Source: Roseburia sp. (GTDB taxonomy: Bacteria; Bacillota; Clostridia; Lachnospirales; Lachnospiraceae). Taken from it: a DNA stretch of 64,000 bases. Location: positions 62,001-126,000 of the forward strand of contig JALEKJ010000008.1 in assembly GCA_022771695.1 (NCBI GenBank). Reading direction: 5' to 3'. Positions 58,757 to 60,611 of this stretch are shown here, piece by piece. A model generated the notes under the pieces. That model saw nothing but the letters and a program-made list of their open reading frames with translations. It did no database searches and was not told the DNA's origin. Both the position numbers and the translations under genes were made by a program. The number at the start of each line of letters is the position of its first letter. The first letter of the stretch is position 1.

Positions 58757-59737
58757 ATGCAACAGGAATTATTAGAACAGCTTCAAAAAATTACAGAAGA
58801 AGAAAAGCGCATTCTCGACGGGGAATTAGATATTCGCAAAGAACTCTATACTTCCAAAAAGGATTTTGTCATTGACAGCAAAAAGCTGTTGGAGAAAGGA
58901 CGCTTGATTGAGATTCGACCACATACCAGATTTGCGCATTTTCCGAAGCACCGCCACAACTATGTAGAGATGGTTTATATGTGCAGCGGCAACACCACCC
59001 ATATCATCAACGGAACCGAAACCATCGTTTTAAACGAGGGGGACCTGCTCTTCTTAAATCAGAATGTCACACAGGAAATCCTGCCCGCAGGCAAAGACGA
59101 TATCGCTGTCAATTTCATCATTCTTCCGGAGTTTTTTGACCGCACAATTTCGATGATTGAGCGCGAAAATGTACTGCGCGATTTTTTGCTTTCTACGCTA
59201 TCTGCAGATAATTCCACTTCCTCTTACCTGCATTTTCAGGCGAAAGACATTCTTCCCGTGCAGAACCTGTTGGAGAATATGATTTGGACGATTATCTGCC
59301 GCAAATCCGGCACCAACACCATCAACCAGACGACCATGGGACTTTTGTTTCTAAATCTGTCGCTGTTCGCCGACAATATCAATCAGAACAATCCGAACCA
59401 ATATGAGCAAAATCTTGTCTTTTCTGTCTTGAAATATATTGAGACACATTATAAAAACGGAACCTTAGAGGATATCTCCACAGAATTAAAGCAGCCGACG
59501 TATTACGTCAGCCGCTTGTTAAAAAAACATACAAATGCGAATTTCAAAGAACTCTTACAACAAAGAAAGCTCCAACAGGCAGCGTATCTGCTCACGCAGA
59601 CACCGCTTACCGTTGAAGCTGTTATGGAAGCAATCGGTTATGATAACAGCAGCTATTTTTACCGGAAATTCCGTGAAAAATACGGCTGTTCTCCGAGAAA
59701 TTATCGCAGTTCGCTTTCCAATTCTTCCAAAATGTGA
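58757..59737 (+). CDS. AraC-family regulator of rhamnose genes
   Basis: 326 residues: N-terminal cupin sensor (HTRFAHFPKHRHNYVEMVYM, about 50-120), helical linker and two C-terminal helix-turn-helix motifs (TLEDISTELKQPTYYVSRLL; VEAVMEAIGYDNSSYFYRKF). Divergent from rhaB and therefore probably the rhamnose-responsive activator, though not clearly RhaS or RhaR. GAGAGG is ahead of ATG 58757. The last 37 bases overlap the convergent next gene. Confidence 0.9.
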   Translation: MQQELLEQLQKITEEEKRILDGELDIRKELYTSKKDFVIDSKKLLEKGRLIEIRPHTRFAHFPKHRHNYVEMVYMCSGNTTHIINGTETIVLNEGDLLFLNQNVTQEILPAGKDDIAVNFIILPEFFDRTISMIERENVLRDFLLSTLSADNSTSSYLHFQAKDILPVQNLLENMIWTIICRKSGTNTINQTTMGLLFLNLSLFADNINQNNPNQYEQNLVFSVLKYIETHYKNGTLEDISTELKQPTYYVSRLLKKHTNANFKELLQQRKLQQAAYLLTQTPLTVEAVMEAIGYDNSSYFYRKFREKYGCSPRNYRSSLSNSSKM

Positions 59738-60444
59738 ATCATATCGCGAATATTTCCCTGCTCTCTTACTCTTTTCTGCAGGTATTTTTTCAAAGTAAGA
59801 TAACTGATTTTTTCCGGAATCAGTCCATCCGCAACACCCGGATACTGTTCTTTTAAGTTATCAATCAGCGTTTTTACAATCTGTTTATTCAAAATTTCGT
59901 CGTAATGCGTTTGGCATTCATCAAATACCAGTGTAATCAGCTCCTCATACGTTGCCTCGTCTATGTTCTCCACATTCTTCTGCACAAGAATCTTATCGTA
60001 ACACTTGATACAGATTTCGTTTTTCTCCAGTTCCACACTGTCGCGAATGCGAAGTAACGGGACAAGCATACCGGTTTCTTTTACAAGTTCTTTTCGCTTT
60101 CGGTTTACAAAATCTGTTTTCAGCCCTTCGATAAAACACGGCACCAGTTCACTGCCAAATTCAATCACCAGAGGCTCCGCAAACATATTGTTGCGGATTT
60201 CTTTTTCCAACACCAAATCATTGTCTTCTACCACTCGATTCTCCGCAATTCCCAAAAGCTGATTTGCGCTAATTTGTAAAATATGGCAGATTCCTTCAAC
60301 CAGAGAAATATCCGGCATTCCCACTCCGCGTTCCCACTTGCTGACTGCCTGCGGCGTTACCCCGAGTCTCGAGGCAAATTCCTCCTGCGTCATTCCCTGG
60401 TTTTGTCTGCTCTGGCTGATTACCGCTCCTATTTCATGTCCCAT
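59701..60444 (-). CDS. XRE-type HTH regulator fused to a FlhA C-terminal-like domain
   Basis: 247 residues. 5-60: Xre helix-turn-helix (MTQEEFASRLGVTPQAVSKW). 90-160 resembles the first part of the FlhA cytoplasmic domain (IEFGSELVPCF; MLVPLLRIRDSVELEKNEI). 175-245 matches the FlhA C-terminal part (HYDEILNKQIVKTLIDNLKE; LIPEKISYLTLKKYLQ; NIRDMIHILEELES). The middle FlhA subdomain seems deleted and there is no membrane region. FlhA is the flagellar export gate, whose cytoplasmic part binds chaperone-substrate pairs. GGAGG precedes the start. Regulated genes unknown. Confidence 0.82.
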   Translation of the reverse strand: MGHEIGAVISQSRQNQGMTQEEFASRLGVTPQAVSKWERGVGMPDISLVEGICHILQISANQLLGIAENRVVEDNDLVLEKEIRNNMFAEPLVIEFGSELVPCFIEGLKTDFVNRKRKELVKETGMLVPLLRIRDSVELEKNEICIKCYDKILVQKNVENIDEATYEELITLVFDECQTHYDEILNKQIVKTLIDNLKEQYPGVADGLIPEKISYLTLKKYLQKRVREQGNIRDMIHILEELESELR

Positions 60445-60562
60445 AATGTCCTCCATTCTAAGCCGCGTCTTTTTCTGCAGAAATGCGTCTTCCTTTTGGC
60501 AGTTATACTGTAACGCATATATGGCTATTTGTAAAACAACGGGACGTTTTCAATCCACTCAA

Positions 60563-60611
60563 CAAAAAGGTTCCAAACGGCATCTAAAAAAATGCCATTC
60601 AGAACCTCTTT
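60563..60611 (-). terminator. Terminator of pepF
   Basis: Interrupted stem GGTTC..GGCAT / ATGCC..GAACC with the minus-strand run TTTTTG, directly after the pepF stop. Confidence 0.75.

Follow-up and report, generated by a model that had tools for sequence, protein, structure and literature searches.

How a DNA-binding domain came to be joined to part of a flagellar export gate, and what such a protein might do, is the question raised by one gene in the window, the 64,000-nucleotide stretch of a Roseburia sp. contig analyzed here. As judged by alignment and a single-chain structure model, its product consists of an Xre-type helix-turn-helix (HTH) domain followed by a cut-down FlhA cytoplasmic domain comprising the linker helix, D1 and most of D3. 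An earlier note on this DNA had described an Xre-type domain followed by FlhA-like segments, with the middle subdomain missing and no membrane part, and alignment and model agree; its broader view, that part of the FlhA export gate has been made into a soluble, regulator-like protein, is likewise borne out by domains and fold. Upstream of the ATG at 60444, which follows a GGAGG (60450-60454) by 5 nucleotides, there is a further in-frame ATG at 60456 that would yield a protein of 251 residues. The parts of the gene, with residues numbered in the 251-residue form, are as follows.

59701..60444, minus strand: HTH-FlhA fusion gene, 247 amino acids plus stop
60250..60438, minus strand: Xre/Cro-CI type HTH domain, residues 7-69
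60184..60222, minus strand: linker helix, residues 79-91, matching the FlhA linker over its C-terminal part (about 350 onward in Salmonella)
59974..60180, minus strand: FlhA-like D1, first part, residues 93-161, with FGSELVP at the place of the GYXLI motif, and an IRD motif
59953..59973, minus strand: short loop in place of D2, residues 162-168, from alignment and model
59893..59952, minus strand: FlhA-like D1, second part, residues 169-188, from alignment and model
59704..59892, minus strand: FlhA-like D3, residues 189-251, lacking the last roughly 17-20 residues, with D4 absent

The first domain is of the HTH_3 type by which Xre/Cro-CI HTH regulators are recognized, and it is similar in fold and sequence to those of the one-component regulators SinR, ImmR, P22 c2 and C.BclI, a likeness that extends to a short-dyad box at the fusion's own promoter. 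Regulators of this class are known to carry ligand, peptide or protease domains as effectors, whereas the effector half of the fusion is derived from a secretion gate. The fusion is best filed as a variant of the Xre one-component regulators and not as an FlhA.

The second half is homologous to the cytoplasmic domain of the FlhA export gate (FHIPEP, PF00771), being alike in fold and sequence across the linker helix, D1 and most of D3. Residues 1-71 constitute the HTH, and the FlhA match starts only at the linker, so that no counterpart of the N-terminal membrane domain was found. Model residue 78 pairs with Salmonella FlhA 348-351 in five of the structure entries, and the resemblance to FlhA, which the earlier note had expected of the fold, continues in the model as far as Salmonella 566-567, where the match stops. 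The end of D3 in FlhA numbering is our assumption, as in part are the D1-D4 boundaries in that numbering. The linker helix reads ExEIxxNLxAEPL as a consensus of 40 aligned fusions, and the GYXLI motif is that defined in the portion of PMC9431611 available to us. When aligned with the full FlhA of the same genome and with variants that keep D2, the fusion has about 7 residues where FlhA has roughly 50, and in the predicted structure this loop lies between a strand (155-161) and a helix (169-183). Thus, FlhA has a membrane domain, D2 and D4, all of which the fusion lacks while being joined to a DNA-binding domain; neither alignment nor model contains the full D1-D4 set, and the score against the NCBIfam FlhA equivalog is 68.8 bits, compared with a cut-off of 772.1. 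The fusion differs in the same way from the injectisome gates SctV, MxiA, YscV and CdsV (YscV subdomain boundaries are from the accessible part of PMC9163089), and its sequence is nearer to FlhA. Chance similarity to FlhA is ruled out by the domain and profile matches together with the matches between model and structures.

What has been kept and what has been lost bear directly on function. According to the available text of PMC5932034, flagellar chaperones bind FlhA in the cleft between D1 and D2, where Asp456 and Leu461 are essential, and the excerpt of PMC8166844 likewise describes a chaperone-docking dimple. The hydrophobic dimple formed by Asp456, Phe459 and Leu461 has no counterpart in the fusion, the corresponding columns being deleted. 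In the FlhA ring, linker residues 351, 354 and 356 contact D1 and D3 of the neighboring subunit (PMC8166844, same excerpt), and the SctV ring requires SD3 and SD4 (PMC9163089, same part). Because the linker, D1 and D3 are retained and D2 is lost, the surviving portion would be mainly packing surface, with most of the chaperone dock gone.

Sister forms that keep D2 also exist (L132, L133, L134, L193 and L194) but are rarer than the D2-less fusion, with which they share the HTH-linker-D1-D3 order. L132, L133 and L134, of 300-318 residues, contain the HTH, linker, D1, a degenerate D2 and D3, and their dock positions read Glu-Pro-Val followed by Trp, Tyr or Leu in the alignment; by eye, L193 has Glu-Ala-Val-Tyr and L194 Glu-Pro-Val-Trp. 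Thus the dock's Glu, which the fusion lacks, stands at the place of Asp456 in all five, with an aromatic residue three places on in four (L193 and L194 by eye). A related CAAC/GTTG box is visible by eye at L132, L133 and L193, and less exactly at L134. Four of the five D2-keeping forms also adjoin a FliD_C-like gene:

L133:11088-11864, L132:8361-9134, L193:359-1129 and L194:188-961: FliD_C-like genes beside the D2-keeping form

Four of six genomes in the genus to which L132 and L133 belong have the D2-keeping variant, the remaining two being 81% and 67% complete, and in all four carriers the neighboring gene, encoding 257-259 residues, lies upstream on the same strand. Pfam assigns FliD_C to the two neighbors tested, which the other two match by phmmer. 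As these four carriers represent one lineage, they count as one event. The D2-keeping form is also found in three genomes of the family sample (G600, G774 and G749). A FliD_C-like gene 4.4 kb from a further locus (L102) was judged a chance neighbor, because the window's genome by itself contains four places with a FliD_C match.

A scan of contigs from about 85,000 species with a single peptide pattern recovered 47 loci, 45 of them belonging to the fusion family and two encoding full FlhA (L129 and L131). The HTH is visible in 43 of the 45; the other two (L113 and L130) start at a contig end. Lachnospiraceae or its genera are named in the labels of 35 (Roseburia, Agathobacter, Acetatifactor, Parablautia muri, Butyrivibrio and Lachnoclostridium), and the labels of ten are wider or different (L086, L091, L093, L098, L104, L118, L119, L121, L122 and L127). 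Parablautia muri D42-62 and Butyrivibrio MC2013 are among the carriers. Within the samples scanned, the family is seen almost only in Lachnospiraceae, where it is patchy: 12 of 62 genus genomes have the fusion, each together with a full FlhA, as do 13 of the 396 genomes of the family sample (requested at at least 90% complete) in the D2-less form, one of them partially. Strong matches among 392 genomes of the order come from the fusion's own genome, G338, G434, G386 and, partially, G227, all of the same family. Among the matches listed for 398 genomes of the phylum, beyond which scores fall below about 91 bits, the window's genome has the sole full-length match; a few short frames there, of for example 335-429 residues, were taken for cut FlhA. 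A mobile origin finds no echo in a viral-contig scan, which returned no close relatives of the fusion.

Of the 47 loci, 39 were aligned with the window protein; omitted were L092 (split frame), L113, L127 and L130 (at contig ends), L116 and L128 (with internal deletions) and the two full FlhA proteins. In a quick tree of 76 rows, 44 fusions and three D2-keeping variants separate from 29 FlhA sequences with an SH-aLRT value of 99, in an analysis that gave several warnings of long branches meeting; the fusion branches are longer than those of FlhA. The family apparently has a single origin. Values of dN/dS lie between 0.085 and 0.21 in seven fusion pairs, with a saturated dS of 2.1 for the pair that includes the window, and point to a conserved family under purifying selection. 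These values, the intact frame and a full FlhA encoded elsewhere in the same genome rule out a broken FlhA remnant.

The strongest result is a candidate operator at the promoter of the fusion gene, which comprises the following elements.

60560..60563, minus strand: third half-site GTTG, 10 bp upstream of the dyad
60537..60549, minus strand: candidate operator dyad AAAC-N5-GTTG, conserved across fusion promoters
60530..60535, minus strand: -35 element TTTACA
60507..60512, minus strand: -10 element TACAGT, 17 bp from the -35 element

Most fusion promoters share the arrangement GTTK-N10-MAAC-N5-GTTG-N-TTTAC, which overlaps into the -35 element: its TTTAC is the beginning of that element, and a -10 consensus TA[TC][AG]AT follows 17 bp further on. 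The promoter set numbered 39, L120 also being left out because of a contig end, and 37 entered the column counts, in which the third half-site, GTT[GT], has T at -12 in 35 and G at -14 in 30. When the 39 were scored out of 12 for [A/C/G]AAC-N5-GTTG-N-TTTAC, 25 scored 12, six scored 11, two scored 10, four scored 9 and two scored 7; shuffled promoters reach at least 10 in under 1% of cases and 11 in 0.06%, and attain the level of the two lowest. The sequence MAAC-N5-GTTG-N-TTTAC occurs exactly once in the window's genome, at 60531-60549 in the fusion gene's own promoter, and with up to one mismatch there are six sites, the same as for the reversed pattern. Across 39 of the 48 fusion genomes, exact copies number 30, of which 25 are at the fusion promoter (14 genomes lack one there) and five lie elsewhere, no more than the six found with the reversed control. 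Three of these five are inside open reading frames (ORFs) and two fall between ORFs of at least 80 residues, one just past the end of a gene and the other amid ribosomal protein genes.

The earlier note had also proposed control of flagellar genes, which the promoter evidence does not support; weaker or different targets may exist. No strong box was found at flagellar promoters in the genome scans, and the 70-kb flhA contig has four sites (1+3+0+0) with at most two mismatches where 3.4 are expected. A 20-kb piece of that contig has three near-matches against 0.84 expected, a number reached by 15 of 200 shuffles, and the stretch with a FliD_C match has one against 0.43; six exact dyads in the 81 kb of flhA contig and FliD_C stretch together are all inside ORFs. 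With the exact box at the gene's own promoter and other copies at control level, the pattern is read as dedicated autoregulation. The gene is very probably autoregulated, and there is good reason, from promoter conservation, to expect that the protein binds the box and sets its own level. Taking the -10 element at -12 to -7, the dyad is centered at about -43, a position compatible with a repressor as well as with a CI-like activator, and so the sign of autoregulation could be either.

Evidence for a flagellar connection comes chiefly from the company that the fusion keeps. FHIPEP matches are present in 57 of the 62 genus genomes, and in all 30 with completeness of 90% or more and contamination of 5% or less. 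For 36 of the 45 fusion loci (including L113 and L130), the genomes were searched for FlhA, the other nine being counted among the genus genomes, and it was found in 34, five of which have it only as contig-cut pieces. Of the remaining two, G470 lacks a FlhA match but has FliP, which was sought in four genomes, and G479 has neither. Simply adding these 36 genomes to the 12 genus genomes gives FlhA in 46 of 48 fusion genomes, and FliP in one more. Many fusion genomes without flagellar or export genes, the outcome that the earlier note had named as speaking against it, were thus not seen in this survey. In the family sample, FlhA accompanies the D2-less fusion in 12 of 13 genomes, compared with about 202 of 396 overall (hypergeometric 0.0019, kinship ignored); the exception, G665, has its match at the same place and of the same size as G470. 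This company may stem partly from shared ancestry.

Around the gene itself, no flagellar neighborhood is apparent. When 1,017 ORFs from 64 partly overlapping fusion loci (1.07 Mb) were compared with 39 proteins of the genome's own flagellar contigs, no flagellar structural or export gene emerged; the only ORFs to resemble any of the 39 were the fusions, one type of ATPase and proteins with receiver or kinase domains. No conserved operon was seen across the 12 genus loci, four of which lie at a common location (c2/c6/c5 genes, read by eye as pepF, nadB and nadC) while the rest differ. Neighbor clusters recurring in at least three of 43 loci were inspected visually, and the recurrence of ABC-ATPase and response-regulator genes among them was judged loose clustering. 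In the window, a gene at 58757-59737 converges on the fusion gene with a 3′ overlap of 37 bp; we take it to encode an AraC-type regulator whose neighbors are presumably rhamnose-use genes.

The explanation preferred here, which appears about evenly balanced between right and wrong, is an autoregulated DNA-binding protein of the Xre family that stands alone and has a cut-down FlhA cytoplasmic domain as its C-terminal half. Because the retained parts (the linker, which contacts D1 and D3 of the next subunit, and D3) are those that pack FlhA subunits side by side, this half would most likely oligomerize the protein, dock it on the FlhA ring, or both. Oligomerization is probable, docking on the ring may occur, and some connection with the export gate is plausible. 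DNA binding, and hence the level of the fusion protein, would in that case track the gate's state of assembly, a step that is offered tentatively and is somewhat less secure than the proposal as a whole; with no copy of the box at flagellar promoters, that level may be the only output. Against gate packing stand the absence of D4, which SctV rings also need, and the shortening of D3. Against the preferred explanation generally stand the promoters that lack an exact box, two of them no better than 7 of 12, the patchiness of the trait, the absence of a flagellar neighborhood, and G479, which is without FlhA and FliP. A bolder version, in which linker helix, D1 and D3 dock in the FlhA ring where a neighbor's linker sits once the hook is finished, so that capture and release would set the free DNA-binding pool and report gate state directly, the protein having arisen once in Lachnospiraceae from the FlhA cytoplasmic domain through a D2-keeping, chaperone-docking form, seems unlikely.

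Conceivably, the FlhA piece was captured merely as a sturdy oligomerization or ligand-binding fold with no working flagellar link. The lack of flagellar neighbors and of boxes at flagellar promoters, the longer fusion branches and the loss of the known chaperone dock would all suit such a capture; against it stand the frequency of FlhA in fusion genomes (46/48 overall, 12/13 in the family sample) and the FliD_C-like gene beside the D2-keeping branch in every carrier of one genus, and on balance it is rather doubtful, if a serious contender. It is improbable that the protein works mainly at the gate, capping, seeding or blocking the ring as a soluble mimic of FlhA while its HTH just holds the amount constant: retention of the linker helix, D1 and D3 speaks for this, as does a box that in 39 genomes does not exceed control levels away from the gene's own promoter (and is exact once in its own genome), yet there is no membrane part or D4, binding is putative, and a DNA-binding domain devoted purely to self-control would be unusual. 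The earlier note had suggested a regulator that could sense export state or free chaperones and adjust flagellar or adhesion genes, which for chaperones would work through the FlhA dock. FlhA-C is indeed a chaperone dock (PMC5932034, as above), and the D2-keeping sisters retain its Glu and, in four of five, the aromatic residue. However, the dock is the D1-D2 cleft, the whole of D2 has shrunk to about 7 residues in the window protein, only the rarer sisters keep it, and flagellar promoters lack the box; chaperone sensing is unlikely for the window's form, and as an account of the fusion it is very improbable indeed.

Known couplings of flagellar assembly to transcription work through exported anti-sigma factors or chaperones. 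If the preferred explanation is true, a regulator derived from the gate would represent a different principle, here in motile gut Lachnospiraceae. Even without a flagellar link, the fusion would show plainly how a secretion-gate domain can become the effector half of a regulator, and the candidate operator already defined makes it readily testable. No paper naming an HTH-FlhA fusion was found in a literature search that was thin in subscription journals, and protein databases may well list the architecture; the terms “helix-turn-helix” and “transcriptional regulator” are absent from the portion of the Roseburia/Eubacterium motility-gene annotation paper that was available (PMC3720852).

Several variant forms were also observed. 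Internal deletions remove much of D1 from the fusion gene at L116:9776-10381 and join the HTH nearly straight to D3 at L128:4907-5332. Further Xre-type genes adjoin the fusion gene at L117, L118, L099 and L113, as if locally duplicated, and one genome (G451, contigs C2 and C70) contains two short FlhA-like frames, of 251 and 246 residues. In addition, D1-only proteins of about 100 residues without an HTH are encoded at L137:7336-7635, L138:7492-7797, L139:3459-3761 and L140:3767-4072; they match the fusion model with E values of 7e-7 to 3e-9, their host genomes also carry the fusion, and two of their genes stand, by eye, in a run with an apparent sensor kinase and a LysM gene.
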